Below, in pieces: positions 9,948 through 30,801 of a stretch of DNA of 32,801 nt (positions are counted from its first letter, which is position 1; each line of letters opens with the position of its first letter). Origin of the DNA: Planctomycetota bacterium (GTDB taxonomy: Bacteria; Planctomycetota; UBA1135). The stretch covers positions 1 to 32,801 of the forward strand of contig RFGR01000010.1 in NCBI GenBank assembly GCA_003696625.1, written 5' to 3'. The notes beneath the pieces were generated by a model. It saw nothing but the letters and a program-made list of their open reading frames with translations. It was not told the DNA's origin and did not search any database. A program made the position numbers and the translations under genes.

Positions 9948-10355
9948 GTGAGTCGAACCATCCAGCTCCGCATCGTCTCGCCCGAGCGGGTCCTGCTCGA
10001 GGTCGAGGTGGTCTCGGTGCGCTTCCCCGGCGCCGACGGCGCCTTCGGCGTCCTGCCCCGGCACGCGGCCATGGTCTCGCTGACCGAGCCCGGGCTGCTG
10101 CGGGCGCGGACCGTCGCCGGCGAGGAGGTCGAGTTCCTGGTTCACGACGGCTTCGCCGAGGTCCGCGGTGACCGGTTGACCGTCCTCACCCGCTCGGCCG
10201 AGCGGCCGGAGGAGGTCGATCTCGAGCGGGCCCGGCGGGCGGCGGAACGCGCCCGCGCCCGGCTCCGCAACGACCGGGCCAGGGTCGATCTCGCCCGGGC
10301 CTCGGCGGCCCTGCGCCGGGCCCTGGTGCGCGAAAAATATGGCCGCCGCTCATGA
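9948..10355 (+). CDS. atpC: ATP synthase F1 subunit epsilon
   Basis: This 135-residue subunit sits on gamma and in many bacteria restrains ATP hydrolysis. The N-terminal beta-sandwich holds F-P-G-A-D-G-A-F-G-V-L-P-R-H-A-A. The C-terminal Arg/Ala-rich helical hairpin (about residues 90-135) is full length, so an inhibitory role is possible. Homology begins at the GTG at 9948 (S-R-T-I-Q-L-R-I-V-S-P-E), not at the ATG 39 bases upstream inside atpD. Its stop overlaps the ATG of aspS (ATGA). Confidence 0.95.
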   Translation: MSRTIQLRIVSPERVLLEVEVVSVRFPGADGAFGVLPRHAAMVSLTEPGLLRARTVAGEEVEFLVHDGFAEVRGDRLTVLTRSAERPEEVDLERARRAAERARARLRNDRARVDLARASAALRRALVREKYGRRS

Positions 10356-12145
10356 CTGAGGCCGTCGGCGGCCGCAGCCACGGCTGCGGGACGCTGCGCG
10401 CCGGCGACGCCGGCCGGGAGGTCCGGCTGTACGGCTGGGTCGGCGCCCGCCGGGATCACGGCGGTGTCTACTTCGTCGATCTCCGCGATCGCTCCGGGAT
10501 CATCCAGGTCGTCGCCGACGAGGAGGCGACCGAGGAGGCCCGCGCCGCCCTGGCCGGGCTCCGCCTCGAGGACTGCGTCGCCGTCCGCGGCCGGGTCCGC
10601 CGGCGCGACGAGCGCAACCGCAACCCGGAGCGGCCGACCGGCGAGGTCGAAGTCCTGGTCGAGCGGGTCGAGGTGCTGGCGCGCTGCGACCGGCTGCCGT
10701 TCGAGATCGTCGACGACCTCGATGCGCCCGAGGAACTGCGCCTGCGCTACCGCTATCTCGACCTCCGGCGGCGGCCGATGCTGGCCCGCCTCGAGCTGCG
10801 CTCGCGGGCCAACCACGCCGTCCGCTGCCAGCTGGTCGAGGAGGGCTTCCTCGAGGTCGAGACGCCGCTCCTGACCCGCTCGACTCCGGAGGGGGCGCGC
10901 GACTACCTGGTGCCGAGCCGGGTCCGTCCCGGCTCCTGGTACGCCCTGCCGCAGTCGCCGCAGCTCTTCAAGCAGTTGTGCATGGTCGGCGGCATCGAGC
11001 GTTACTTCCAGCTCGCCCGTTGCCTGCGCGACGAAGATCTGCGCGCCGACCGTCAGCCGGAGTTCACCCAGCTCGACCTGGAGCTGTCGTTCGTCGACGA
11101 GGAGGAGATCCTGGCCGTGGTCGAGCGGGTCATGGCCCGGCTGTTCGCCGAGATCCTGGGCCGGGAGCTGCCGCTGCCGTTGCCGCGGATGTCCCACGCC
11201 GAGGCGATCCGCCGCTTCGCCAGTGACAAGCCCGACCTGCGCAATCCGCTCGAGATCTGCGACCTCGGCCGGCAGGCCGGCACCATCGGTTTTCGGATCT
11301 TCGACGACGCCCTGGCCGGCGGCGGCCTGGTCCGCGGCGTCCGCCTTCCGGGCGGCGCCCGGCTGCCGCGCAAGCGGATCGACGCCCTCGAGCAGGCCTG
11401 CAAGGACGCCGGCGCCGCCGGCATGGCCTGGTGCAAGGTGGGGGAGGACGGTCCCAGCGGCCCGCTCGCCCGCTTTCTCGGCGGCGACGCCGGCGCCGCT
11501 TTCCTGGCCGCCGCCGACTGTCGCCCGGGCGACCTGCTGGCGGTGATCGCCGACCGGCCCCGACGGGCGCTGGTCGCCCTGGACGCCCTCCGCCGCGCCG
11601 CCGGGCGGGAGCTGGATCTGGTCGCGGGCCCGGACCGCCTGCTCTGGGTGACCGACTTCCCGCTCTTCGAACAGGACGACGACGGCGGCTGGTTCCCGGC
11701 CCACCACCCGTTCACCGCGCCCCACCCGGACGACCTCGAGGACCTCCTCGCCGGCCGTCGGGAAGGGATCCGTTCGCGCGCCTACGACCTGGTCATGAAC
11801 GGCGTCGAGCTGGGCTCGGGCTCGATCCGGATCCACCGGCGCGACGTCCAGGAGGCGGTCTTCGCCGCCCTCGGCATCGGGCCGGAGGAGGCCCGGCGGC
11901 GCTTCCGCTTCCTGCTCGACGCCTTCCGGTTCGGGCCGCCGCCGCACGGCGGCTTCGCCCTCGGCCTCGATCGCCTCTACGCCCTGCTCGCCGGCGCCGA
12001 CTCGATCCGGGAGGTCATCGCCTTCCCGAAAACCACCGCCGGCGGTTGTCCGCTGACCGAGGCCCCGGCCCCGATCGATCCCGAGCAGCTCGCCGAGCTG
12101 GGGATCCGCTTCACCGCCGAGCGCGGCGAGGCCGAAAAGGAATAG
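10352..12145 (+). CDS. aspS: Aspartyl-tRNA synthetase
   Basis: This 597-residue class II synthetase charges tRNA-Asp. An N-terminal OB-fold anticodon-binding domain (about 1-110) precedes the catalytic core, with motif 2 region R-D-E-D-L-R-A-D-R-Q-P-E-F-T-Q. The bacterial GAD insert spans about 285-420 and motif 3 is G-G-F-A-L-G-L-D-R-L. In the OB fold the residue after R-R-D is His36, as in non-discriminating enzymes that also charge tRNA-Asn. The second marker position (Arg88) is basic, as in discriminating ones. Specificity is therefore open. The ATG overlaps the atpC stop, so it is translationally coupled to the ATP synthase operon. Confidence 0.97.
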   Translation: MTEAVGGRSHGCGTLRAGDAGREVRLYGWVGARRDHGGVYFVDLRDRSGIIQVVADEEATEEARAALAGLRLEDCVAVRGRVRRRDERNRNPERPTGEVEVLVERVEVLARCDRLPFEIVDDLDAPEELRLRYRYLDLRRRPMLARLELRSRANHAVRCQLVEEGFLEVETPLLTRSTPEGARDYLVPSRVRPGSWYALPQSPQLFKQLCMVGGIERYFQLARCLRDEDLRADRQPEFTQLDLELSFVDEEEILAVVERVMARLFAEILGRELPLPLPRMSHAEAIRRFASDKPDLRNPLEICDLGRQAGTIGFRIFDDALAGGGLVRGVRLPGGARLPRKRIDALEQACKDAGAAGMAWCKVGEDGPSGPLARFLGGDAGAAFLAAADCRPGDLLAVIADRPRRALVALDALRRAAGRELDLVAGPDRLLWVTDFPLFEQDDDGGWFPAHHPFTAPHPDDLEDLLAGRREGIRSRAYDLVMNGVELGSGSIRIHRRDVQEAVFAALGIGPEEARRRFRFLLDAFRFGPPPHGGFALGLDRLYALLAGADSIREVIAFPKTTAGGCPLTEAPAPIDPEQLAELGIRFTAERGEAEKE

Positions 12146-12190
12146 AATGGCCCGCCCCCGGCCCATCACTCCGACCACCCGCATCGCCCT

Positions 12191-12206
12191 GAGGTAGCCG
12201 ACCATT
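12191..12206 (+). promoter_or_regulatory. infC initiation region: Shine-Dalgarno plus AUU start
   Basis: GAGG (12191-12194) lies nine bases ahead of ATT (12204-12206). The IF3 reading frame opens only after the TAG at 12195-12197. It has no NTG codon until a CTG inside the conserved V-F-L-I-G segment. AUU is thus the only reasonable start, as in E. coli infC, where it lets IF3 repress its own translation. Confidence 0.75.
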
Positions 12207-12749
12207 CCCCCGCGCCGTAGAAGATCTCGTTATGCTCCGCCGGAAAAGGAGCGCTACCGCGTCAACAACCGCATCCGGATCAAGGAGGTCTTCCTGATCG
12301 GCCCCGAGGGGCGCCAGGTCGGCGTGGTGCCGACCGCCGAGGCGCTGCGGATGGCCCAGGAGGCCGGCCTCGACTTGGTCGAGGTGGCGCCGCAGAGCCG
12401 GCCGCCGGTGTGCAAGATCCTGGACTACGGCCGCTTCAAGTACGAGCAGAAGAAGAAGCAGAGCCGGTCCAAGAGCGCCTCCTCGATCCTCAAGGAGCTG
12501 CGGGTCCGGCCGAAGATCGACGACCACGACCTCGAGATCAAGATCCGTAAGGCGCGCGAGTTCCTCGAGGCCGGCCACAAGGTCCAGATCACCTGCCTCT
12601 TCCGCGGCCGGGAGATGGTCTACCAGAACCTCGGCCGCGACGTGCTGATGAAGGTGGTCGAGGCCCTGGCCGATCTGGCCCGGGTCGAGCGGCCGCCGCG
12701 GATGGAGGGCCGGCGGATGAACATCCTGCTCGGCCGCAAGTCCGGCTGA
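12204..12749 (+). CDS. infC: Translation initiation factor IF-3 (AUU start)
   Basis: This 181-residue factor binds the 30S subunit, keeps subunits apart and checks start codons. The N-terminal domain has R-V-N-N-R-I-R-I-K-E-V-F-L-I-G. The linker and C-terminal domain hold P-P-V-C-K-I-L-D-Y-G-R-F-K-Y-E and K-E-L-R-V-R-P-K-I-D-D-H-D. A basic tail R-R-R-R-S-R-Y precedes the N domain, as in many IF3s. Starting at the first ATG (12342) would delete the N-terminal domain, so the AUU at 12204 is preferred. It lies 58 bases after aspS and heads the infC-rpmI-rplT group. Confidence 0.92.
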   Translation: MPPRRRRSRYAPPEKERYRVNNRIRIKEVFLIGPEGRQVGVVPTAEALRMAQEAGLDLVEVAPQSRPPVCKILDYGRFKYEQKKKQSRSKSASSILKELRVRPKIDDHDLEIKIRKAREFLEAGHKVQITCLFRGREMVYQNLGRDVLMKVVEALADLARVERPPRMEGRRMNILLGRKSG

Positions 12750-12839: not shown

Positions 12840-13034
12840 GTGCCCAAGCAGAAGACCAAGAAGGCCGTCGCCAAGCGCATGAAAGTGACGAAGACCGGCA
12901 AGGTGCTTCGTCGTCACGAGGCCACCGGCCACCTTCTCTCCGCCAAGTCCGCCAAGCGCCGGCGGAACCTTCGGCGCAGCACCGTCGTGCTCGGCAAGTT
13001 CGCCCAGAACATGCGCGAGCTGATGAACTCGTAG
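12840..13034 (+). CDS. rpmI: Ribosomal protein L35
   Basis: This 64-residue basic protein of the 50S subunit begins M-P-K-Q-K-T-K-K-A and has R-R-H-E-A-T-G-H-L-L-S-A-K-S-A-K-R. The start is a GTG at 12840 with only a poor Shine-Dalgarno. It sits between infC and rplT in the order found across bacteria. In E. coli this group is repressed by L20 and IF3; here rpmI appears to have its own promoter. Confidence 0.95.
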   Translation: MPKQKTKKAVAKRMKVTKTGKVLRRHEATGHLLSAKSAKRRRNLRRSTVVLGKFAQNMRELMNS

Positions 13035-13049: not shown

Positions 13050-13409
13050 ATGACTCGCGCCCGTTCCGTCGTTCCGCGTCTGCGCCGGCGCCGGCGGCTC
13101 TTCCGGCGTTCCAAGGGCAACTGGGGGGCCCGCCGCAAGCTGCTGCGGACCATGAAGGAGAACCTGCTGCGGGCCGGCATGTTCGCCTACCGCGACCGCC
13201 GGAACCGCAAGCGGGTGTTCCGCCGGCTCTGGATCCAGCGAATCAACGCCGCCGCCCGCAGTCACGGCCTCAGCTACTCGCGCTTCGTCCACGGGGTCAA
13301 GAAGGCCGGGATCGAGATCGACCGTAAGGCCCTCAGCGAACTGGCCTTCCACGACCCGGCCGCCTTCGCGGCCGTGGTCGAGCGGGCCAAGGAAGCCCTG
13401 GCCGCCTGA
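13050..13409 (+). CDS. rplT: Ribosomal protein L20
   Basis: This 119-residue 50S assembly protein has a long basic N-terminal helix ([19 protein letters not shown]). The globular C-terminal domain carries [22 protein letters not shown] strong GGGAGGAGG Shine-Dalgarno lies just ahead of the ATG at 13050. Length is standard. Confidence 0.97.
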
Positions 13410-13418
13410 GTCGGGCCG

Positions 13419-14447
13419 ATGCGCGACCAGCTCGAGCGGCTGCGCCGGGAGGGGCTGGCCGCGCTGGCCGGCGCCGAGGACGAAGCGGCCCTCCGCCGCG
13501 AGGAGGTCCGGCTGCTCGGCCGCCAGGGCGAGCTGACCGCTCTGCTCAAGCAGGTCGGCGCGCTGCCGGCCGCAGAGCGCCCGGAGGCCGGCCGGCTGGC
13601 CAACGCGGTCAAGGCCGAGCTGGCCGCGGCCCTGGACGAGCGGCGCCGGGCGCTGGCCGCCGCCCGCCTCGAGCGCGACCTGTCCGGGGCCGGCTTCGAC
13701 CCGACCCTGCCGGGACCGCCGCCGCCGGCCGGCACCCTGCACCCGATCACCCGGGTCCAGCGCCGGCTCGAGGACCTCTTTACGGCCATGGGGTTCGTGG
13801 TCGCCGACGGCCCCGAGGTCGAACTCGAGGAGAACAACTTCGACGCCCTCAACATCCCCGCCGATCACCCGGCGCGGGAGGCCCAGGACACAATCTGGGT
13901 CCGGTCCGAGCGCGGGGTCTGCATGCGCACCCACACCTCGCCGGTTCAGGTCCGGGCGCTGCGCCGCTTCGGGGTGCCGCTGCGGGTGGTGGCCCCGGGC
14001 CGGGTCTTCCGCCAGGAGACCCAAGACGCCTCCCACGACCACACCTTCCATCAGATGGAGGGCCTGGTCGTCGACCGCGGGGTCGGCGTCGGCCACATGC
14101 TGCACGCCATGAACACGCTGCTGGCGGGGGTCTTCGGCCGCGACCTCGAGACCCGCCTGCGGCCGGGCTTTTTCCCCTTCGTCGAGCCCGGGTTCGAACT
14201 CGACGCCCGCTGCCCGTTCTGCAGCGACGGCTGTCGGGTCTGCAAGGGGTCGACCTGGGTCGAGCTGATGCCGGGCGGTCTCGTCCACCCGAACGTGCTG
14301 CGCGCCTGCGGGGTGGATCCGGAGGAGTACAGCGGCTACGCCTTCGGCCTCGGCCTGTCTCGGCTGGCGATGCTCTGCTACGGCATCGACGACATCCGCT
14401 GGCTCCTCGGCGGCGACCTCCGCTTCCTCGAGCAGTTCCCGGCATGA
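13419..14447 (+). CDS. pheS: Phenylalanyl-tRNA synthetase alpha subunit
   Basis: This 342-residue catalytic subunit of the alpha2-beta2 enzyme charges tRNA-Phe. An N-terminal coiled coil (about 1-90) grips tRNA. The class II core follows with H-P-I-T-R-V, R-T-H-T-S-P-V-Q, F-R-Q-E-T-Q-D-A-S-H-D-H-T-F-H-Q-M-E-G and the final G-L-G-L-S-R-L. A four-Cys segment (C-P-F-C and C-R-V-C near residues 265-275) could bind zinc, as seen in some other bacterial PheS. Its stop overlaps the ATG of pheT. Confidence 0.97.
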   Translation: MRDQLERLRREGLAALAGAEDEAALRREEVRLLGRQGELTALLKQVGALPAAERPEAGRLANAVKAELAAALDERRRALAAARLERDLSGAGFDPTLPGPPPPAGTLHPITRVQRRLEDLFTAMGFVVADGPEVELEENNFDALNIPADHPAREAQDTIWVRSERGVCMRTHTSPVQVRALRRFGVPLRVVAPGRVFRQETQDASHDHTFHQMEGLVVDRGVGVGHMLHAMNTLLAGVFGRDLETRLRPGFFPFVEPGFELDARCPFCSDGCRVCKGSTWVELMPGGLVHPNVLRACGVDPEEYSGYAFGLGLSRLAMLCYGIDDIRWLLGGDLRFLEQFPA

Positions 14448-16861
14448 AGGTCTCTCTGTCCTGGATCGGCGAATTTGTCGACCTCGACGGCGTCGCGCCG
14501 GAGCGGGTCGCCGAGCTGCTTTCCTTGCACACGGCCGAGGTCGAGGGCCTGGAATGGTTCGGGGAGGCGATCGCCGACGTCGTCGTCGGCGAGGTGGTGG
14601 CGTGCGGCCCGCACCCGGGCGCCGACAAGTTGTCCCTGACTCGAGTCGAGTTCGGCGCCGGCGAGGCGGTGCCGGTGGTCTGCGGCGCCCCGAACGTCCG
14701 CCGCGGGCTGAAGGTGGCCTTCGCGCCGGTCGGCAGCCGCCTGCCCGGCGGCATCAAGATCAAGAAAGCCCGGCTGCGCGGCGAAACCTCCTGCGGCATG
14801 ATCTGCTCCGAGCGCGAGCTGGAGCTGTCCGACGAACATCAGGGAATCCTGGAACTCGACCCGGCGGCCCCGGTCGGCGCCCGCCTGGTCGATTACCTCG
14901 GGCTGCTCGATCCGGTCCTCGAGCTGGACAACAAGTCGCTCACCCACCGACCGGACCTCTGGGGCCACTATGGTTTCGCCCGCGAGCTGGCCGCCATCCT
15001 GGGCCGTGAACTCCGACCGCTGCCGCTGGCGCCGCCCTGGCCGGAGGCCGACGGCGAAGGGGTACCGATCGAACTCGAGGATCGGGCGGGATGCCCGCTC
15101 TACCTCGGCCTGCGCATCGATCTGGACGCCGCCCCGCGGCCCTCGCCGGGCTGGCTTCGACGCAGGTTGCTGGCGGTCGGGCAGCGGCCGCTCGACGACG
15201 TCGTCGACCTGACCAACTACATCCTGCTCGAGACCGGGCAGCCGACCCACGCCTTCGACCTCGACCGCCTGCAGGGGCCGGAGATTCGGGTCCGCCCTGC
15301 CGCCCAGGGCGAACTCCTGACCACTCTCGACGGGGTCGAGCGGCAGCTGGTCGCCGAAGATCTGGTCATCGCCGACGCCGGCCGCGCCGTCGCCCTGGCC
15401 GGGGTGATGGGCGGCGAGAACTCTGAGGTCGGCCCGGAGACGCGCCGGCTGCTGCTCGAGTCCGCCTCCTTCGACCCGGTCCGGGTGCGGCGGACGGCAC
15501 AGCGCCACGGCCTCCGCAGCGAGGCTTCGGCCCGGTTCGAGAAGTCGCTCGATCCGGCCCTGGCCCCGGAGGCCCTGCGCCGGTTCGCGTCCCTCCTCGC
15601 CCGGGTTCGGCCCGAGGCGCGGGTGCTCGGCCCGCCGGCGGTCGCCGGCGCCGCCGCCGCGCCTGCGATCCGTCTCGAACTCGAGCCGGAGCGGGCCGCC
15701 CGGCTGCTCGGCCTGCCGCTCGGCCGGGAGGAGGTCGCGGCGCCCCTCCGGGCCCTCGGTTTCGCGGTCGCCGACGAGGGCTCCGGGCCGCTGCAGGTTG
15801 GGGTGCCTTCCTGGCGGGCCACCAAGGACGTCACTCTGCCGATCGATCTGGTCGAGGAGGTGGGCCGGATGGCCGGCTACCACCGGATTCGGCCCGAGGC
15901 GCTGCTGGCGCCGGTCGAGCCCCCCTGGACCGACCCGGTCCGGCTCCTCGGGCGGCGCCTGGCCGACCGCCTGGCCGGCGCCTGGCAGGGCGCCGAGACC
16001 CAGGGCTATTCCTTCCTCGACCGGCGCTGGGCGGAACGCCTCGGGCTGCCGGAGGAGAGTTTCGCCCGGCTCGCCAACCCGGTCCAGGACCGGGTCGACC
16101 TGGTCCGGCGCGATCCGGTGCCGACCCTGCTCGAGCAGGCGGCCGGCAACGTCCGGGAGCGGCCCCGGGGCCTGCTGTTCGAGCTGGCCAAGGGCTACGA
16201 GGCCGATCGAGCGGACGCGGACGGCCTGCCCGTTGAGCGGCGCTGGCTCGGGGCGGTCCTCTGGCAGCGACCGGGCGTCCGGCCGGACGGGCCGGAGAGC
16301 GCCTTCGGCGCGGCTCGCAGTCTGACCGAGGACTTGCTGCGGACGGCCGTGGCGCCGGCCGGGGCCGAACCCGGGCACGGCCCGTCCTGGGCCCACCCCG
16401 CCCGCGCGCTGGCCTGGCGGGGCGAACCCGATCGACTGCTCGGCTGGTCGGCCTCGCTCGACCCGCGGCTGGCCGGGGAACTCGACCTGGACGGTTTCGA
16501 CACCGCGGTGGTCCTCCTCGACCTCGCCGCCCTGGCCGAACTCGGCGCCGGTCGCCTGCCCGCCTTCCGGCCGCCGGCGCGGGTGCCGGCGATCAAGGTG
16601 GACGTCGCCCTGGCTCTGCCCGAGGAGGTGTCCTACGCCGAGGTCGAGGCGGCCCTGCGCCGGGCCGGCGGCAAGCTGCTCGAGAGCCTGACTCTGTTCG
16701 ACCTCTTCGCCGGCGGCTCGCTGCCGCCGGGACAGCGGAGCCTGGCCTTCCACGCCGTGCTGCGTGCCCCCGACCGCACCCTCGGCGAGAAGGACGAGCG
16801 CCGCTTCCTCGAACGGGCGGCCCAGGCCGCTCAGGAACTCGGCGGCGCGCTGCGCGCCTGA
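14444..16861 (+). CDS. pheT: Phenylalanyl-tRNA synthetase beta subunit
   Basis: This 805-residue protein has domains in the usual order. An EMAP-like tRNA-binding domain (about 40-150) includes G-P-H-P-G-A-D-K-L. The B3/B4 editing domain includes Q-P-T-H-A-F-D. The B5 domain follows, then a catalytic-like core and a C-terminal FDX-ACB anticodon-binding domain (about 710-805, with L-F-D-L-F and the ending G-E-K-D-E-R-R-F). It starts in an ATGA overlap with pheS and ends eight bases before the convergent glycosyltransferase gene. Confidence 0.97.
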   Translation: MKVSLSWIGEFVDLDGVAPERVAELLSLHTAEVEGLEWFGEAIADVVVGEVVACGPHPGADKLSLTRVEFGAGEAVPVVCGAPNVRRGLKVAFAPVGSRLPGGIKIKKARLRGETSCGMICSERELELSDEHQGILELDPAAPVGARLVDYLGLLDPVLELDNKSLTHRPDLWGHYGFARELAAILGRELRPLPLAPPWPEADGEGVPIELEDRAGCPLYLGLRIDLDAAPRPSPGWLRRRLLAVGQRPLDDVVDLTNYILLETGQPTHAFDLDRLQGPEIRVRPAAQGELLTTLDGVERQLVAEDLVIADAGRAVALAGVMGGENSEVGPETRRLLLESASFDPVRVRRTAQRHGLRSEASARFEKSLDPALAPEALRRFASLLARVRPEARVLGPPAVAGAAAAPAIRLELEPERAARLLGLPLGREEVAAPLRALGFAVADEGSGPLQVGVPSWRATKDVTLPIDLVEEVGRMAGYHRIRPEALLAPVEPPWTDPVRLLGRRLADRLAGAWQGAETQGYSFLDRRWAERLGLPEESFARLANPVQDRVDLVRRDPVPTLLEQAAGNVRERPRGLLFELAKGYEADRADADGLPVERRWLGAVLWQRPGVRPDGPESAFGAARSLTEDLLRTAVAPAGAEPGHGPSWAHPARALAWRGEPDRLLGWSASLDPRLAGELDLDGFDTAVVLLDLAALAELGAGRLPAFRPPARVPAIKVDVALALPEEVSYAEVEAALRRAGGKLLESLTLFDLFAGGSLPPGQRSLAFHAVLRAPDRTLGEKDERRFLERAAQAAQELGGALRA

Positions 16862-16869
16862 AGCCTCCC

Positions 16870-18339
16870 TCAGTCCAGGCCGGACGCCAGGGGCCGGTTC
16901 AAGAACAGGCGGGCGGCCGAACGGGTCGGCGGTTCGGACCATGCCACGCCGGCGTCGCGGAGGGCGCGGGCCAGCTCCAGCCGGTTTCGTCCGTCCCCGT
17001 CCGGATCGTGGACCAGGACGAAGGCCGGCTGCGCCCCGGCCAGCAGTTCCACGGCGCGGGCGAAGGCGCGCTCGCGCCCGGACCGCTCGGGAGCCAGGCC
17101 GCGCCCGGCGGCGAAGGTCCAGGCCTTAGGCGGGGGCCCGAGGCACTCCAGGTCCGTCCGGCGGAGCCGGAAGGGCAGGCCGTAGGACCAGCTCATGAGC
17201 TGGGCGCCCGCCCAGTCGGCCGCGCCGGCGGCCCGCAGGACCCGGGCGGTGTCGTCCTCGCTGCGGGCCCGGACCGGGTCGAGGAAGAGGATCAGACCGG
17301 CCAGCGCCAGAGCGGCCCAGGCCGCACCGATCACCAGCCGCGGCCGCCGGTCGGTGGGTTCCGCCCAGGCCGGGCCGAGCCACAGGGCCAGGCCGGGCAG
17401 GGCCGGCGCCAGGTAGGCCGGCTGCTTGCCGGCGGGCAGCGAGAAGAAGAGGATCGGCAGCAGCGCCCAGACGGCGTGGAAACGAGCATCCCCGGCCACG
17501 GCCAGCCGGCGGCGCCGGCGGCTGGAGAGCAGGCCGAGCCACCACGGGAACAGGACGGCGGCGGCCAGAGCCGGGAAGAACCAGATCGGCCGGGCGCGGG
17601 CGTGGACGTCGCTGGCGATCCGGCCGACCGTCTCGCGGCCGATCCAGAACTCCCACAGGCCGGGCTGGGCGGCACCGGCGGCCAGGTACCAGGGCAGGCC
17701 GATCGCGGCCATGGCCAGCCAGAGAAGCGGGTGGAGCAGGCGGCGCAGGGCGGCGCCGTCCCGCTCGAGCAAGCCGGTGACCAGGAGGACGAGCAGGGCC
17801 AGGGCCGGCCCGACCGGCCCCTTGACCAGGAAGGCGGCGCCGAAAGCGGCGCCGGCGGCCGCCGCCGGTCCGGCGCCGCCCCGGCGCTGCAGCCGCCGGC
17901 CGGCGAGGAGGCCGGCGGTGACCAGAGCGGTCAGGACCATGTCAAGGGTGGCGAGCTGACCGAGGACGAGGAGCAAGGGCTCGGCGACCAAGATCAGCAC
18001 CGCGGTGGCGCCGGCCGCCCGGCCGATCCGGTCCCGGCCGCGGCGCCGGACCAAGAGGACCGTGGCGCCCAGGGCGAGCAGGGCCGGCAGGCGGACGGCG
18101 AAGGCGGTCGGCCCGAGGACCGCCATCGCCCCGGCCATCGCCCAGTAGACGCCGGGAGGCTTGTCCGGGTAGACGACGCCGGCGTGGCGCGGCAGGAGCA
18201 GGTCGCCGCTGGCCAGCATCTCCCGGGCGGCTTCGCCGTAGCGGCCTTCGTCCGGTTCGGCCAGCGGCCGCAGCAGCGCGGCCGCGGCGACCAGCGCCAG
18301 CAGGACGAGGATCAGGCGCCGTTCGGCGGTGGGGGGCAA
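16870..18339 (-). CDS. ArnT/PMT-like membrane glycosyltransferase
   Basis: A 489-residue polytopic protein of the GT83/ArnT type, which moves a sugar from a polyprenyl carrier onto an envelope acceptor. The first outer loop has the family motif P-D-E-G-R-Y-G-E-A-A-R-E-M-L-A-S-G-D followed by Y-P-D-K-P-P-G-V-Y-W, holding the catalytic acidic residues. About ten hydrophobic segments follow, then a soluble C-terminal part. No ATG or GTG lies in frame in the divergent gap. TTG at 18339 is taken as the start; TTG at 18399 would add 20 residues. Donor and acceptor are unknown, but the divergent sugar transferase suggests surface polysaccharide. Confidence 0.85.
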   Translation of the reverse strand: MPPTAERRLILVLLALVAAAALLRPLAEPDEGRYGEAAREMLASGDLLLPRHAGVVYPDKPPGVYWAMAGAMAVLGPTAFAVRLPALLALGATVLLVRRRGRDRIGRAAGATAVLILVAEPLLLVLGQLATLDMVLTALVTAGLLAGRRLQRRGGAGPAAAAGAAFGAAFLVKGPVGPALALLVLLVTGLLERDGAALRRLLHPLLWLAMAAIGLPWYLAAGAAQPGLWEFWIGRETVGRIASDVHARARPIWFFPALAAAVLFPWWLGLLSSRRRRRLAVAGDARFHAVWALLPILFFSLPAGKQPAYLAPALPGLALWLGPAWAEPTDRRPRLVIGAAWAALALAGLILFLDPVRARSEDDTARVLRAAGAADWAGAQLMSWSYGLPFRLRRTDLECLGPPPKAWTFAAGRGLAPERSGRERAFARAVELLAGAQPAFVLVHDPDGDGRNRLELARALRDAGVAWSEPPTRSAARLFLNRPLASGLD

Positions 18340-18346
18340 GGGTGGT

Positions 18347-18375
18347 TTGGTGGCAGGCCGGGGACGGGGTAGTTT
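18347..18375 (+). promoter_or_regulatory. Possible promoter of the sugar transferase gene
   Basis: TTGGTG (18347-18352) and TAGTTT (18370-18375) are 17 bases apart in the only AT-richer patch of the divergent gap. Both hexamers are weak matches. Confidence 0.25.
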
Positions 18376-18423: not shown

Positions 18424-19893
18424 ATGGGCTGGTTGCGCCGCAACTTCGACACCTGTTTCATCGTCCTGCAGGTCTGGCTGGATGGGTTCACCATCCTCCT
18501 CGCCTGCGTGGTCGGTCTTCGGATCTTCCACCAGATGAACGAGTTCGCCCTCTACCGGCAACTCGTGGTCGTCATCGTCGGCGTCACCCTGGTCTGCTTC
18601 TGGAGCTGCGGGCTCTACCGCTGGCGGAAGTCGATCCTGAACGTCGAGGAGTACCGAGCCGCCTTCCAGGCCACCGCCCTCAGCTTCCTCGGCACCGCCA
18701 CCACCCTCTACCTGCTGCGGGCGGTCGATGAGGGCGGACCGAGCTGGGACTTCTTCGGCTTCGAGCTGCTGCGCAGGGTCCACGACGTCGTCGGCCTGGC
18801 CGACATCGACCAGTGGTCCCGGTTCATCTACGTCCTGATCTTCTTCCTGATCTTCGTCTTCACGGTCATCCAGCGCGGGATCATGTTCAAGGTCAGCTCG
18901 ATGCTGCACGCGGCCGGGCTGGGGAACACCAACGTCGCCGTCTACGGCACCGGCGACATGGCCCGCCGGGTGGAACAGAAGATGCGGATCTTTCCCACCC
19001 TCGGTTACCGCTTCGTCGGCTTCCTCGACGACGAGGCCGAGCCGCCGGCCGGCGCCGCGGGACTCCGGCCCTATCTCGGCGGCCGCGACCAACTCGAGCA
19101 GGCCGTGGCCCGGGCCGCCGTCCACCGGGTGATCGTCGCCAAGCCGGAGATGGAGGAGGACCGTCTGATCGAGCTCTGCGGCCGGTTCGAGCGGCTCGGC
19201 ATCGACTATCAGGTCGTGCCGCGCCTCTACCACTTCTTTTCCCAGCGGTTCACGATCGATTCGCTCGATTCGATCCCGCTCATCACTCTCAACCGGAATC
19301 CCGGCCGGCCGATCTACCGCTTCACCAAGGAAGTGGTCGACCGGACCGCGGCCCTGGTCCTGCTGGCCCTGCTGTCGCCGCTGATGGCGCTGATCGCCTT
19401 CTTGATCCGGCGCGAGTCGGCCGGCCCGGCCTTGTTCAGCCAGGTCCGGGTCGGTTATCGGGAGCGGACCTTCCGCATGCTCAAGTTCCGGACCATGTAT
19501 CAGGACCGCTGCGTCGACGCCGTCACCCCGACCAGCAAGGAGGATCCGCGGGTGACCCGGATCGGCCGCTTCCTGCGCCGGACCTCACTCGACGAGCTGC
19601 CGCAGCTCATCAATGTGCTGCGCGGCGAGATGTCGCTGGTCGGGCCGCGCCCAGAAATGCCCTTCATCGTCGGCCACATCAAGGACGATATCGGGGATCC
19701 GGTCTACCACCTCCGGTTCCAGACCAAGCCGGGCATCACCGGCCTGTGGCAGGTCTCCTCGGCCCGGCGGGCGCCGATCGAGGAGAACATCGACTACGAC
19801 CTCTACTACCTCGAGAACCAGAGCATGTTCCTCGACCTGGTCATCCTCTTTCTGACCGTCCTGGCGGTCCTGCGGATCCGTGACACTTTCTGA
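18424..19893 (+). CDS. Polyprenyl-phosphate hexose-1-phosphate transferase
   Basis: A 489-residue WbaP/WcaJ-type enzyme that loads the first sugar-phosphate onto undecaprenyl phosphate to start a surface polysaccharide. About four membrane helices precede residue 160. A Rossmann-like CoA-binding_3 domain (about 175-290) has [11 protein letters not shown] membrane re-entrant helix (about 315-340) leads into the catalytic domain with [29 protein letters not shown] and [10 protein letters not shown]. All core motifs are intact. The sugar cannot be told. The next gene overlaps it by 14 bases. Confidence 0.93.
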
Positions 19894-20353
19894 CGCCGGC
19901 CCCGACGGCCTGAGCCGGCGCGGTCCCGACCGCCGCCGGCGGCCGACCCCGATCCTCTCCCGCTACAGCTTCTACGGCGGCCGCCGGCGCGGCGGCCGCC
20001 GCGCCGGCGAGACCGCCGACACCTTCGTCGACCTCTACTCCTTCCGGGTTTGGCTGGCCCTGAGCCTGTTCCTGCTCCTGAACCTGCTCGACAGCCACTT
20101 CACCCTGATCTACCTGCAGCGCGGCGGCGAGGAGGGGAATCCGGTCGCCATCGCTCTGCTCGCGAGCGGTATCGGCACCTTCATCCTGGTCAAGGCGGTC
20201 GGGATCGGCTTGGCCGCGGCCCTGTTCTGCCTGCTCAAGAACTTCAAGAACGGCCGGCGCGGGGTCTTCCTGGCCCTGGCTCTCTACCAGGCCCTGCTCC
20301 TCTACCACCTGAGCCTCTACTTCAACTTGGTCCCGGGCTCGGTCGAGCCCTGA
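19880..20353 (+). CDS. DUF5658-like membrane protein
   Basis: A 157-residue protein starting at GTG 19880 inside the end of the sugar transferase. The N-terminal 45 residues are basic and hold a striking motif, R-R-G-P-D-R-R-R-R-P-T-P-I-L-S-R-Y-S-F-Y, followed by G-G-R-R-R. I recall this pattern in proteins with a DUF5658 membrane domain. Four hydrophobic segments follow (about 53-75, 85-98, 100-118, 126-145), with N-L-L-D-S-H-F-T near the first. Function is unknown. The overlap suggests it works with polysaccharide initiation. Its 3' end overlaps the convergent activator gene by 37 bases. Confidence 0.75.
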   Translation: MTLSDAGPDGLSRRGPDRRRRPTPILSRYSFYGGRRRGGRRAGETADTFVDLYSFRVWLALSLFLLLNLLDSHFTLIYLQRGGEEGNPVAIALLASGIGTFILVKAVGIGLAAALFCLLKNFKNGRRGVFLALALYQALLLYHLSLYFNLVPGSVEP

Positions 20354-21759
20354 CCGGGACGGCCGCGCCGGTTCCGGGTCATGCCCAGCCGGCGCATCCG
20401 GGCGTAGAGGGTCGAGCGGTCGATTCCGAGCATGGCCGCCGCCCGTTCGCGGTTGCCGTCACAGGCCTCGATCGCGGCCCGGAGGATCCGTCGCTCCGGC
20501 TCGGCCAGCAGGTCCTTGAGCCGGTAGCGCCGGCCGGGCACCAGCCGCGGCAGCGGGATCGAGTCGGCGGGGACGGCGCCGGCGCCGACCACCGCCGGCG
20601 GCAGGTGTTCGGGCAGGATGGTCCCGCCCTGGCTGAGCAGGAGGCCGCGCTCCAGGCAGTTGGCGAGTTCGCGGACGTTCCCCGGCCAGGAATACTGGAG
20701 GAGGAGGCGGGCGGCCGGCCGGCTGATCCGCGGCACCGGCCGTTCGTAGTCGGCGGCCAGGCGCGACAGCAGGTGGCGGATGAGCGGCATGATGTCGCTC
20801 GGCCGCTCCCGCAGCGGCGGCAGGTCGATCCGGATGACCTCGATCCGGAACAGGAGGTCCCGGCGGAACTCGCCGCGCTCGACCGCTTCGCGCAGACTGG
20901 TGTTGGAGGCGAAGATCAGGCGGACGTCGGCCCGCCGGGTCCGGCTCTCGCCGACCCGCTCGAAGGTCCGGTCCTGGAGGAAGCGGAGCAGCTTGACCTG
21001 CAGGGCCGGCGAGGCGCTGCCGATCTCGTCCAGGAAGAGAGTGCCGCCGTCGGCGTCCTCGAAGCGCCCGGGACGGTCGCGGTAGGCGCCGGTGAAGGCG
21101 CCGCGGATGTGGCCGAACAACTCGCTCTCGAGCAGGGGTTCCGGGATCGAGCCGCAGGACACGGTGACGAAGGGCCGATCGGCCCGGTCGGAGAGCCGGT
21201 GGATGGCCTGGGCGAGGAGGGATTTGCCGGTCCCGCTCTCGCCGCAGACCAGCACCGTGGCCCGGGTCGGGGCGACCGCCCGCACCTGCTCGAAGGCGGC
21301 CAGCATGCGGCCGTCCCGGGCGACCAGGTGGTCGAGGGAGTGCTCGATCTCGAGCCGTTCGCGGAGGTGCCGGACCTCGCCCCGGAGCCGCTGCTGCTGC
21401 AGGAGGTGGTCCACCGCCAGCACGAAGTCCTCGCCGGCCTGCGGCCAGGGGATCCGCTCGATCGAACCGAACGGTCCGGCGGCACCCGAGCCGGCGCCGA
21501 GGCGGGGGCCGAGCAGGACCACCGGCGGCAGCCGGGGGGTCGCCGCAAGCTCCTCGAGCAGATCGAGCGCGCCGCGGTCGCCGATGCCGGGCAGGCAAAG
21601 CAGGAGGTCGTGGCCGCCGGATCGGGCGGCCTCGACGACCTCCTCGCGGCCTCCGCAGGCCTCGACCCGGAAGCCGGCCTCGGTCAGGAGACCGGTCAGT
21701 TCGGCCCGGATGCCGGGCCGGTCGACGAGCAGCAGCAGGCGGCCCCGCGGCGGTTCCAC
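20317..21759 (-). CDS. Sigma-54 activator with degenerate receiver domain
   Basis: A 480-residue NtrC-family protein. Residues 5-120 have the receiver fold but lack its chemistry: Leu56 at the phospho-acceptor Asp, Arg14 in the acidic pocket, Ile103 for the switch Lys. The AAA+ domain (about 140-380) is intact: G-E-S-G-T-G-K-S, G-A-F-T-G-A for sigma-54 contact, and Walker B F-L-D-E. A Fis-type helix-turn-helix ends the protein (R-A-A-A-M-L-G-I-D-R-S-T-L-Y). GTG 21759 is chosen because an ATG at 21849 would overlap the upstream gene by 56 bases and add non-receiver sequence. Control must come from something other than phosphorylation, likely the kinase-like neighbour upstream. Confidence 0.9.
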   Translation of the reverse strand: MEPPRGRLLLLVDRPGIRAELTGLLTEAGFRVEACGGREEVVEAARSGGHDLLLCLPGIGDRGALDLLEELAATPRLPPVVLLGPRLGAGSGAAGPFGSIERIPWPQAGEDFVLAVDHLLQQQRLRGEVRHLRERLEIEHSLDHLVARDGRMLAAFEQVRAVAPTRATVLVCGESGTGKSLLAQAIHRLSDRADRPFVTVSCGSIPEPLLESELFGHIRGAFTGAYRDRPGRFEDADGGTLFLDEIGSASPALQVKLLRFLQDRTFERVGESRTRRADVRLIFASNTSLREAVERGEFRRDLLFRIEVIRIDLPPLRERPSDIMPLIRHLLSRLAADYERPVPRISRPAARLLLQYSWPGNVRELANCLERGLLLSQGGTILPEHLPPAVVGAGAVPADSIPLPRLVPGRRYRLKDLLAEPERRILRAAIEACDGNRERAAAMLGIDRSTLYARMRRLGMTRNRRGRPGQGSTEPGTKLK

Positions 21760-21793
21760 GCCGGGGACGATAGCGGATCCGGCGCCGGCCGGC

Positions 21794-22780
21794 TCAGGAT
21801 CGAGGCGGCGGCCAGGAGAGGCCGGCCGCCACCGGCACGGCGCCGTCACGCCAGCGGAGCAGCGGCTGGGCGCCGAGCTGGGCGGCGAGTCGCGCCAGCA
21901 GCGCGGCCAGGAAGCCGGGCGGGCGGACCGCCTCCGCGGCCGGGGCCGTCTCGCCCCCTTCCTCGGCCGCCAACCAGTAGAGGCGGGCGTGCCCCTCCTC
22001 GATGCCGCCGCGCAACACCAGGTCGCCGCCGGGACCGAAGCGTTCGAGAAGGAGCCGGCCGGCGTGGAGGGCCGCCTCGAGCCGACGCAGGTCGACCTCG
22101 ATGGTCACGGTCGGCCCCTCCCACTCCAGGCGCAGCCGGTCGTCGCCCCGCCGGGCCTGCTCGAATAGACGCTGCGCCACCCCCTTGCCGTCGACGAGTT
22201 CCCGGTGGCTTCCGCTCGGGGAGGTGGCGAGTTCCAGCGCCGCCAGCAGGCGGTCGAGTTCCCGGGCCGAGTCCAGCGCCGGGCCGACCAGCCCTTCGTC
22301 CGCGGCCGGAGCCTCCCCGCGCAACAGCTGCAGGTAGCCGGACAGGCTGGCCAGCGGGTCGCGCAGCCCCTCGACCAGCCCGGACAAGAGCTCGGCGTCG
22401 TCGGCGCCCTGGACGCGTCCTCGGCCGAGGACGACCTGTTCGAGGCCGCGCGGGGTCCAGGGCTCGGGCAGGAAGCGGACGTTCGGCAGGCCGAGCAAGG
22501 GCTCGGCGCCGGCCAGGCCGCGGTCGCCGACGACGAGTACGGCCTGGAGGGCGGAGTTCCGGCGCAGGATGTGGTGGAGCAGGCGCAGCGAGGAGAGGTC
22601 CGCGCGGTTGGTCCGCAGCACGACCAGGTCGCAGCCCTCGGCCCGCGGCGGCCAGTCGGCCGTGGGCGGCAGAACCCGGAGATCGGCCCGGGGCAGGAGG
22701 GCGCGCAGGGCCTTGGCCAGCGGACCGTCCGGGTCCGGGTCGAGGAGCAGCAGGCTCCGGGAGGAGGGTGAGGGAGGCAT
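21794..22780 (-). CDS. Histidine-kinase-like protein lacking catalytic residues
   Basis: A 328-residue protein with three degenerate signalling parts. Residues 8-118 resemble a receiver, but Arg56 is at the Asp site and E-P is at the Lys-Pro site. Residues 128-190 resemble a HisKA dimerisation helix, reading L-V-E-G-L-R-D-P-L-A-S-L-S-G-Y-L-Q-L-L where H-E-L-R-N-P-L is expected (Glu137 for His). Residues about 200-328 follow a HATPase outline without recognisable N, G1 or G2 boxes. No membrane segment is seen. ATG 22780 has a good GGGAG; ATG 22822 overlaps the gmhB stop (TGATG) and would add 14 residues. It is probably an adaptor for the activator 34 bases downstream. Confidence 0.75.
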   Translation of the reverse strand: MPPSPSSRSLLLLDPDPDGPLAKALRALLPRADLRVLPPTADWPPRAEGCDLVVLRTNRADLSSLRLLHHILRRNSALQAVLVVGDRGLAGAEPLLGLPNVRFLPEPWTPRGLEQVVLGRGRVQGADDAELLSGLVEGLRDPLASLSGYLQLLRGEAPAADEGLVGPALDSARELDRLLAALELATSPSGSHRELVDGKGVAQRLFEQARRGDDRLRLEWEGPTVTIEVDLRRLEAALHAGRLLLERFGPGGDLVLRGGIEEGHARLYWLAAEEGGETAPAAEAVRPPGFLAALLARLAAQLGAQPLLRWRDGAVPVAAGLSWPPPRS

Positions 22781-22821
22781 CCCGACTCCCGCGATGATGC
22801 CATGACTTCCGCCCTCTTTCA

Positions 22822-28013: not shown

Positions 28014-29354
28014 ATGGAGATCCTCCTGGTCGAGGACGAACGGACCCTGGCCGCCGCCCTCGCCGAGGGCCTGGGCGAGGCGGGGCACCGGGTCACCGTC
28101 CTCCACGACGGCGCCGCCGCCCTGGCCTGGCTCCGCGAGGGCCGCTGCGACCTGGTCGTGACCGACGTCCGCCTGCCCGGCGCCGACGGCATCCGCGTCC
28201 TCGAACGGGCCCGCGAGCAGGATCCGCCGGCCGACGTGATCGTGATGACCGGCTACGCCACCGTCGAGCAGGCGGTGGCGGCGATGCGGGGCGGCGCCTT
28301 CGGCTATCTGCAGAAGCCGTTTCCGGCCGAGGCCCTGCTGGCCCAAGTCCGGCGGGTGGGCGAGATCCGCGCGATGCGGACCGAACTCGAGCGACTCCGG
28401 GCGGGCGACGACGAGGACGACCTCGGCCTGGTCGGGGACGGCCCGGCGATGCGCGCGGTCCGGGAGCGCATCCGGACCGCGGCCGCCAGCGAGGCGGCGG
28501 TCCTGATCGAGGGCGAGAGCGGGACCGGCAAGGAGCGGGTGGCGCGGGCGATCCATTGGATCGGCCCGCACCCGGAGGCGCCCTTCGTCCCGGTCGCCTG
28601 CGCCGCCCTGCCGGCGGGACTGCTCGAGGGGGAGCTGTTCGGCTTCCGCCGCGGCGCCTTCACCGGCGCCGACGAGGACCACGCCGGCCTGTTCCAGCGC
28701 TGCGGCCGGGGCACCCTCTTCCTGGACGACGTCGACGACTTCCCGGCGGCCGCTCAGGCGGCGCTGCTGCGGGTGCTCCAGGAGCGGGAGTTCCGGCCGC
28801 TCGGCTCGGACGAGGCGCTGCCGTTCCAGGGGCGGACGGTGGCGGCGGCGAAGGGCGATCTGGGGCGGGCGGTCGCCGCCGGCCGTTTCCGCGAGGATCT
28901 CTACTACCGGCTGGCGGTGGTGCCGATTCGGCTGCCGCCGTTGCGGGAGCGGCTCGAGGACCTGCCGCGGCTGGTCGCCGTCTTCCTGCGCCGGCACGAC
29001 CCGGACGGACGCCTTGAGGTGCCGCCGGCGACCCTGGCCGCGCTGGCCGACCACGACTGGCCCGGCAACGTGCGCGAACTCGAGAACGCGGTCGCGCGGG
29101 CGGTGGCCCTGGCCGGCCGGGCCCGCCTGCTCCGGCGCGAGCACTTCTTTCCCGGCGGCCCCCTCGGCGGCCACGGCCGCCGGCCGGAGGAGGTGCCCAG
29201 CCTGCGCGAGTGCGTCCGTCGGGCCGAGCGGGAGGCGATCCGGCGGGCGCTGGCGGCGACCGGCGGCCGCCGGGCCGAGGCCGCCCGCCTGCTCGGCATC
29301 TCCCGCAAAGCGCTGTGGCAGAAGGCCAAGGAACTCGGTCTCGACGGCGGATGA
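28014..29354 (+). CDS. NtrC-type response regulator with altered ATPase centre
   Basis: A 446-residue sigma-54 activator. The receiver (1-115) is complete: E7/D8, phospho-acceptor D51 in V-V-T-D-V-R-L-P-G, T79 and K101. The AAA+ domain has G-E-S-G-T-G-K-E and G-A-F-T-G-A, but several key sites differ. Walker B is F-L-D-D (D239 for Glu), the glutamate-switch Asn is A195 (V-A-C-A-A-L), and sensor I reads A-A-A-K instead of A-A-T-N. The C-terminal Fis-like helix-turn-helix is normal (A-A-R-L-L-G-I-S-R-K-A-L-W-Q-K). No kinase gene lies nearby. It may have slow or differently gated ATPase. The speB stop and this ATG abut (TGAATG). Confidence 0.92.
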   Translation: MEILLVEDERTLAAALAEGLGEAGHRVTVLHDGAAALAWLREGRCDLVVTDVRLPGADGIRVLERAREQDPPADVIVMTGYATVEQAVAAMRGGAFGYLQKPFPAEALLAQVRRVGEIRAMRTELERLRAGDDEDDLGLVGDGPAMRAVRERIRTAAASEAAVLIEGESGTGKERVARAIHWIGPHPEAPFVPVACAALPAGLLEGELFGFRRGAFTGADEDHAGLFQRCGRGTLFLDDVDDFPAAAQAALLRVLQEREFRPLGSDEALPFQGRTVAAAKGDLGRAVAAGRFREDLYYRLAVVPIRLPPLRERLEDLPRLVAVFLRRHDPDGRLEVPPATLAALADHDWPGNVRELENAVARAVALAGRARLLRREHFFPGGPLGGHGRRPEEVPSLRECVRRAEREAIRRALAATGGRRAEAARLLGISRKALWQKAKELGLDGG

Positions 29355-30049
29355 TCCGGATCCGACTGGAGCGGGCGCCTCGGGTCGTGGCCGACCTCCA
29401 CCTGCGGCCGGAGGAGCCGGAGGAGATCGCGGCCTTCGCGGCCCAGGTCCGGGAGCTGGCCGGCGCCGGGGCCGACCTGGCCGTGCTCGGCGATCTGGTC
29501 GACGCCTGGCCGGGTCCGGGGCACTGGCGGGAACCCGCCTGGGCGCCGCTGCTGGCGGCGGCGCGGGAGCTGACCGCCGCCGGCGGCCGGCTCTGGCTCC
29601 TCCGCGGCAACCGCGACGTGCTGTTCGAACCGGCCGACCTCGCACCGCTCGGCGCCCGGCTGGCCGACGCCCTGCTGGCCCCGGCCGAGGAGGGGCTGGC
29701 CCTGCTCAGCCACGGCGACGAGTACTGCCTGCGCGACCGGCCCTATCAGCGGTTGCGGCGGGCGCTGCGCTGGCCGCCGCTGCGGCGGCTGCTTCGGGCC
29801 CTGCCTTACCGGCTGCGCCTTCGCCTGGCCGCCCGGATGCGCGGGGTCAGCCGCGCGGCGGTGGCGCGGAAGCCGCTCGACGCCCTCGCCCTCGAGCCGG
29901 CGGCGGTGGCGGCGGCCCTGGCCGAGGCTGGCGCCGGACTGGCCGTGATCGGCCACCTGCACCGGGAGGAGCAGCGGGAACTGCCCGGCGGCCTTCGCCT
30001 CCGGGTGCTGCCGGCCTGGTCGCCCGAGCGGCCGCCCGCGGCGATTTGA
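29351..30049 (+). CDS. lpxH: UDP-2,3-diacylglucosamine diphosphatase (LpxH-like)
   Basis: A 232-residue calcineurin-like phosphoesterase. Metal-binding motifs are in order: A-D-L-H-L (D15, H17), L-G-D-L-V-D-A-W, R-G-N-R-D, S-H-G-D and G-H-L-H-R. The mid-region Y-R-L-R-L-R-L-A-A-R-M-R and the following S-R-A-A-V-A-R-K-P-L match the LpxH cap that grips the acyl chains. LpxH cleaves UDP-diacylglucosamine to lipid X in lipid A synthesis at the inner membrane face, so the organism likely makes lipid A. ATG 29351 lies in an ATGA overlap with the regulator. Confidence 0.87.
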   Translation: MIRIRLERAPRVVADLHLRPEEPEEIAAFAAQVRELAGAGADLAVLGDLVDAWPGPGHWREPAWAPLLAAARELTAAGGRLWLLRGNRDVLFEPADLAPLGARLADALLAPAEEGLALLSHGDEYCLRDRPYQRLRRALRWPPLRRLLRALPYRLRLRLAARMRGVSRAAVARKPLDALALEPAAVAAALAEAGAGLAVIGHLHREEQRELPGGLRLRVLPAWSPERPPAAI

Positions 30050-30073
30050 CCCCGATCCGGCCAGGGATAGAAT
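30046..30073 (+). promoter_or_regulatory. Putative promoter of cmk-rpsA
   Basis: TTGACC (30046-30051), a 16-base spacer and TAGAAT (30068-30073) lie between lpxH and cmk. The -35 box includes the lpxH stop codon. ATG follows 11 bases after the -10 box, so the leader would be only a few bases. It is the best sigma-70 match I see in the window. Confidence 0.55.
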
Positions 30074-30084
30074 CATCCGTTCCC

Positions 30085-30801
30085 ATGCCCGCCCACGGCC
30101 CTTCGGAGCCGGTTCCGGTCATCGCCCTGGACGGCCTCTCCGGCTCCGGCAAGAGCACCCTGGCCCGGAGGCTGGCCGAACGGCTCGGCTGGACCTACCT
30201 GGACTCGGGCGCCTGGTACCGGGCCCTGGCCTGGGCCGCGCGGGAGCGCGGCGTCGATCCGACTTCGGCCGCCGACCTCCTCGCCCTGCTCTCTGAGATC
30301 GAGATCCTCGGCCGGCCCGACGGCACCGTCGTCGTCGACGGGCGCGAACTCCGCGGGGAGATCCGCAGCCCGGAAATCGACGAGCTGGTGACCGAGGTGG
30401 CCGACCGGCCCGAGGTGCGCGCGGCCCTGAACCGGCGCATGCGCCGGCTGCGGCGCCAAGCCGGCGTCGCCGGGGTAGTCGCCGACGGGCGCGACGCCGG
30501 CTCCGTCATCTTCCCGGACGCCGCCCTCAAGGTCTTCGTCGACGCTTCGCTCGAGGTCCGGGCCGACCGGCGCTACCGGCAGCGGCTGGCCTCCGGCCGG
30601 CCGACCGACCGCGCCGAGGTGCTGCGGGCGCTGGCCGCCCGCGACGCCCGCGACGCCGCCCGGGGGGAATCCGCCCCGCGCCGCGTCCCGGGCAGCGTGC
30701 TGCTCGACAACAACGAACTCTCCGTCGAGGAGGCGATCCGGCGCCTCCTGAACCTCGCCCGGCCGCTGCTTGCGCCCGGTCCGGCGCGGGGCCAGCCCTA
30801 G
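30085..30801 (+). CDS. cmk: Cytidylate kinase
   Basis: A 238-residue kinase that phosphorylates CMP and dCMP with ATP. The P-loop is D-G-L-S-G-S-G-K-S-T. The CMP-binding region has Y-L-D-S-G-A-W-Y-R-A-L, and the later motif D-G-R-D-A-G-S-V-I-F-P-D-A is followed by R-R-Y-R-Q-R-L. All are typical of bacterial Cmk. The adjacent pair cmk-rpsA is conserved in many bacteria. ATG 30085 is the first after the promoter. Confidence 0.96.
   Translation: MPAHGPSEPVPVIALDGLSGSGKSTLARRLAERLGWTYLDSGAWYRALAWAARERGVDPTSAADLLALLSEIEILGRPDGTVVVDGRELRGEIRSPEIDELVTEVADRPEVRAALNRRMRRLRRQAGVAGVVADGRDAGSVIFPDAALKVFVDASLEVRADRRYRQRLASGRPTDRAEVLRALAARDARDAARGESAPRRVPGSVLLDNNELSVEEAIRRLLNLARPLLAPGPARGQP

Follow-up and report, generated by a model that had tools for sequence, protein, structure and literature searches.

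The infC gene in the stretch of DNA analysed here (the window, 32,801 nucleotides of a planctomycete genome) raises the question from which codon translation initiation factor IF3 is produced, and whether this codon would place the gene under the control of its own product. IF3 destabilises initiation complexes on codons besides AUG, GUG, and UUG (Butler 1986, 1987; Sacerdot 1996, as cited in PMC5472188). According to the same source, IF3 of E. coli represses its own synthesis by virtue of the AUU start codon of infC, and a change of AUU to AUG abolishes this autocontrol (Butler 1987). The original prediction for the window held that infC starts at an ATT codon, which was taken to suggest that this control is preserved in the lineage. 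The features involved are the following.

10352..12145, + strand: aspS, aspartyl-tRNA synthetase, 5' neighbour of infC; adjacency kept in the family
12191..12195, + strand: GAGG(T), Shine-Dalgarno sequence of infC (GAGG itself 12191-12194), with a GAGG-to-ATT spacing of 9 nt
12195..12197, + strand: in-frame TAG in the sequence, which excludes an upstream infC start
12204..12206, + strand: ATT, putative initiator of infC; no other NTG or ATH codon occurs after TAG 12195 and ahead of the conserved RVN motif; ATT, ATC, or ATA is found here across the family
12204..12749, + strand: infC, translation initiation factor IF3, 181 codons from ATT to TGA (12747-12749)
12324..12326, + strand: GTG, codon 41 of infC and its first NTG
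12840..13034, + strand: rpmI (L35), GTG start, control gene (ORF list, family comparison)
13050..13409, + strand: rplT (L20), ATG start, control gene (ORF list, family comparison)
13419-14447 and 14444-16861, + strand: two ORFs read as pheS and pheT on order and size only, in an E. coli-like gene order

The infC frame is closed by the TAG at 12195-12197, which is separated from ATT 12204 by the codons CCG and ACC. The only codons one base away from ATG ahead of the RVN motif are this ATT and an AAG (12249). Both IF3 domains were matched in the 181-residue product, which scored 198.8 bits against the TIGR00168 equivalog (cut-off 60), and an intact IF3 is obtained only when the frame is read from ATT 12204. 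The IF3_N match covers residues 20-87, and CTG 12294 (codon 31), GTG 12324 (codon 41), and the first ATG (12351, codon 50) all fall within it. In these respects the original prediction was borne out: the frame is closed by TAG, no NTG precedes the conserved N-terminal domain, and an ATT nine bases after GAGG gives a full-length IF3. Its statement that the first ATG would remove the N-terminal domain holds insofar as this codon lies inside the domain; initiation there would break the domain, not wholly remove it. A gene caller restricted to NTG would yield a 141-aa product from GTG 12324. A genome search found no second infC across the source genome, a draft metagenome-assembled genome (MAG) of 186 contigs, and IF3 is single-copy in it. 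The infC Shine-Dalgarno sequence is modest (5 nt); the anti-Shine-Dalgarno was read from two family members with assembled 16S rRNA, which have the standard end GGATCACCTCCTTTC, the MAG of the window being without the 16S rRNA 3' end. The gene therefore has the properties of an IF3-discriminated start, with no AUG, GUG, or UUG available and an AUH codon behind a correctly spaced Shine-Dalgarno sequence. Because TAG 12195 shuts the frame and no NTG occurs before codon 41, ATT 12204 is, as read from the letters of the window, the only workable infC start, and the AUU start is real.

A 42-codon stretch free of NTG in a single GC-rich gene could be due to chance, a matter that is decided by comparison. 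The presence of any NTG between the upstream stop (within 60 codons) and the conserved core was determined for infC, rpmI, and rplT in the GTDB family of the window (f1), of which the named relatives are all uncultured Planctomycetota MAGs, with UBA7888 as the nearest. NTG was absent from infC in 21 of the 21 members with an upstream stop; NTG-free rpmI and rplT were found in 0 of 18 and 0 of 14, respectively. Within the family the feature is thus kept in the infC of relatives and not in the neighbouring genes, which does not extend to the families f5, f6, and f8. When chosen by the best Shine-Dalgarno sequence, the family infC starts were ATT (6), ATC (6), ATA (10), and ATG (1), the choice being decided by this sequence in G002, G008, G019, and several ATA genomes that have two nearby AUH codons. 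Member G015 has no nearby stop and an ATT behind GGAG, the sole member with ATG (G005) reads ATGATG, and infC is broken or located at a contig edge in G011 and G016. In nearly all members a Shine-Dalgarno sequence is present upstream, mostly at the right distance. ATA accounts for 10 of 22 family infC starts versus 12 of 252 Ile codons in the family IF3 core, and Ile codon usage alone thus does not account for the start. All three kinds of stop codon are encountered at differing distances just before infC, and this variety rules out both initiation further upstream and one shared assembly error.

By these comparisons the original interpretation is partly supported: the conserved feature is a codon rejected by IF3, not AUU itself, and it is limited to the family. 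The expectation that AUU control is preserved in the lineage thus stood for the class of start codon (21 of 21 NTG-free), but not for AUU as such, and it failed in f5, f6, and f8. Likewise, the proposed comparison of the start region across relatives returned a Shine-Dalgarno sequence mostly at the right distance, but a codon that varies among ATT, ATC, and ATA. Relatives with ATG or GTG replacing ATT had been named as contrary evidence; they are absent among the 21 stop-bounded members, but ATG is found in G005 and f5, and GTG or TTG in f8.

The surroundings of infC were inspected for other known modes of control. The gene upstream of infC is aspS, and never thrS, in all family members that could be checked, and thrS of the genome of the window is located on a separate contig (C150). 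An E. coli-type infC operon, with thrS immediately upstream, was thus not found, as aspS takes that position. The aspS-infC adjacency was also observed in one or several genomes of f4, f7, f8, f11, f26, f33, and f51. The aspS-infC intergenic region contains, in frame with infC, an ORF of 16 codons (12147-12197, ATG to TAG 12195); this upstream ORF was rejected as a candidate since it is not conserved in the nearest relatives. A special RNA structure at the infC start was ruled out, as the fold over 12144-12263 was not more stable than shuffled sequences (z 0.53). Moreover, an Rfam scan of the window at gathering thresholds returned zero matches, including for the L20 leader, and a leader-controlled infC operon of the Bacillus type was rejected accordingly. 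Elsewhere in the window, two long ORFs without Pfam match (17008-18369 and 20050-22794) flank a sugar transferase gene (18424-19890). In a further ORF (29014-30801) a cytidylate kinase domain is confined to residues 370-582; because the N-terminal part overlaps the upstream sigma-54 activator gene and is without Pfam match, the actual start probably lies at a more internal position, which still leaves an extension without explanation.

ATG, TTG, and GTG are starts that IF3 does not discriminate against, and these codons are found in several sister families. In the order to which the family of the window belongs, infC starts with ATG in f5, with TTG behind AGGAGG in f6, and with GTG or TTG in f8; f7 of the same order retains ATT and ATC starts. 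Codon-based IF3 autocontrol seems to be lost in f5, f6, and f8. At an intermediate stage, the phylum sample comprised 84 genomes with a non-NTG infC start, 42 with NTG, and 33 that were unclear. At least 14 changes of start class were counted on the IF3 tree, a rough figure from a short and weak single-gene tree, and IF3 codon control appears to have been lost repeatedly in the phylum.

Genomes scored as unclear, which had no NTG or AUH candidate, included cases with a conserved ACG behind a Shine-Dalgarno sequence. ACG mismatches the initiator anticodon at its second position. An apparent ACG infC start behind an SD-like GGAGG or GGAG was encountered in 18 genomes of five families (f45, f25, f66, f64, and f17), at the following loci.

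f45: L264, L266-L269
f25: L271, L272, L274
f66: L270, L273, L275, L276
f64: L259-L261
f17: L228, L283, L284

In the order or class of G101, ACG was found in 5 of 6 (f45), 3 of 3 (f25), and 4 of 4 (f66) genomes, G193 being the exception among the members read; the counts were 3 of 4 for f64, the fourth having CTG, and 3 of 3 for f17. In G101, G179, G161, G202, and G131 an upstream stop is present and no NTG, ATT, ATC, ATA, or CTG occurs before the core. Inside the IF3 genes of the ACG genomes (16 genes), the Thr codon ACC is more frequent than ACG (52 versus 35), and the invariant ACG start is therefore not explained by Thr codon use; the product of the per-gene ACG fractions is 2e-7, a rough value since relatives are not independent. 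Where readable, rpmI and rplT of the ACG genomes start with ATG or GTG. The ACG infC genes form three separate groups on the IF3 tree. Probable CTG starts were detected at L262 and L263 (f31), L258 (f64), and L200 (f44). In f31 (G083 and G106) the CTG is preceded by an 8-nt Shine-Dalgarno sequence, GGAGGTGA. In-frame ATG codons are located downstream in L200 and L263; G083 is without in-frame NTG and is the stronger CTG case because G106 carries in-frame ATG codons downstream of its CTG. No IF3 residues conserved in AUH genomes yet changed in ACG or NTG genomes were detected at cut-offs of 90% and 60%. ACG infC starts were not described in the open literature searched, although this does not establish their novelty. 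Overall, we consider it rather probable that selection keeps infC on any IF3-rejected codon across Planctomycetota, with its identity drifting among AUU, AUC, AUA, CUG, and ACG, and with ACG in an entire class plus another two families, in which neighbouring genes have ATG or GTG. The survey suggests that selection acts on rejection of the codon by IF3, not on AUU itself.

The window has the same arrangement as E. coli infC, and for that reason initiation at AUU 12204 combined with homeostatic self-repression by IF3 is the best explanation, and a very likely one. Translation of infC would be initiated at AUU 12204 by fMet-tRNA, aided by the GAGG(T) Shine-Dalgarno sequence, and IF3 would make initiation complexes come apart faster wherever the codon is not AUG, GUG, or UUG. 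Ample IF3 would lower its own translation and scarce IF3 would release it, a homeostatic circuit like that of E. coli. We infer both the initiation at AUU 12204 and the repression by IF3, the autorepression by analogy with E. coli.

The most serious alternative, albeit an unlikely one, is that AUU is used merely as a weak codon that fixes a low IF3 yield, without meaningful feedback. Against the loop count the ATG of one family member and the NTG starts of three sister families, which make it dispensable, as well as the modest Shine-Dalgarno sequence and the lack of a 16S rRNA 3' end in the MAG; that sister families live with an ATG, TTG, or GTG infC, making feedback dispensable in this order, speaks in favor of a fixed yield. 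However, the repeated swaps among IF3-rejected codons (AUU, AUC, and AUA in the family; CUG and ACG elsewhere) fit sensitivity to IF3 better, as the exchange is not to a weak NTG or a weak Shine-Dalgarno sequence.

Two other alternatives dispute the start itself. Translation could begin at the internal CTG 12294 or at GTG 12324, a legal start, to give a shortened IF3, or by readthrough of TAG 12195 from ATG 12147, which shares its frame. This is highly improbable, as the internal starts cut the conserved IF3_N domain, relatives conserve the N-terminal tail that begins at ATT (IPPRRRR...), and ATG 12147 is missing in the nearest relatives, whose stops lie at other positions. A sequencing or assembly error that made the stop or erased an NTG start is conceivable for a draft MAG of 186 contigs, but can be virtually dismissed, since the infC frame is intact and 21 family members, which are independent genomes, are also NTG-free with different upstream stops. 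Regulation through an IF3-rejected start thus stays the preferred reading. The original prediction is right in essence and partly supported, and is better stated as an IF3-rejected start retained within one family, with drift among AUU, AUC, and AUA, and loss in sister families; this wording gains support from the putative ACG and CUG starts of other planctomycete lineages.

The window thereby extends a known autoregulatory theme to one planctomycete family, and its infC is a case in which callers limited to NTG would set the start wrongly. The turnover of infC starts among IF3-rejected codons, together with the loss in some families, provides a natural series (AUU, AUC, AUA, CUG, ACG, and NTG) that can be used for testing the worth of IF3 autocontrol. 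If confirmed, a conserved ACG start would be unusual in bacteria.

Outside the phylum, AUU, AUC, and AUA infC starts are already known from E. coli, Bacillus, Streptomyces, and Staphylococcus. E. coli infC, which is annotated from ATT, differs from the gene in the window in its Shine-Dalgarno sequence (GGAGG versus GAGG(T)) and in its upstream neighbour, as the window has aspS there and thrS is on another contig; moreover, autorepression is established in E. coli and predicted for the window. The two genes share an AUU start behind a Shine-Dalgarno sequence, are of almost identical length (543 bp in E. coli versus 546 bp), and are followed by rpmI-rplT. The infC start is ATC in Streptomyces (according to PMC5472188), ATT in B. 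subtilis, where an L20 leader is present that has no Rfam counterpart in the window, and AUA in S. aureus, as determined by initiating-ribosome profiling. These species belong to phyla other than that of the window, but they have an AUH start of infC in common with it.
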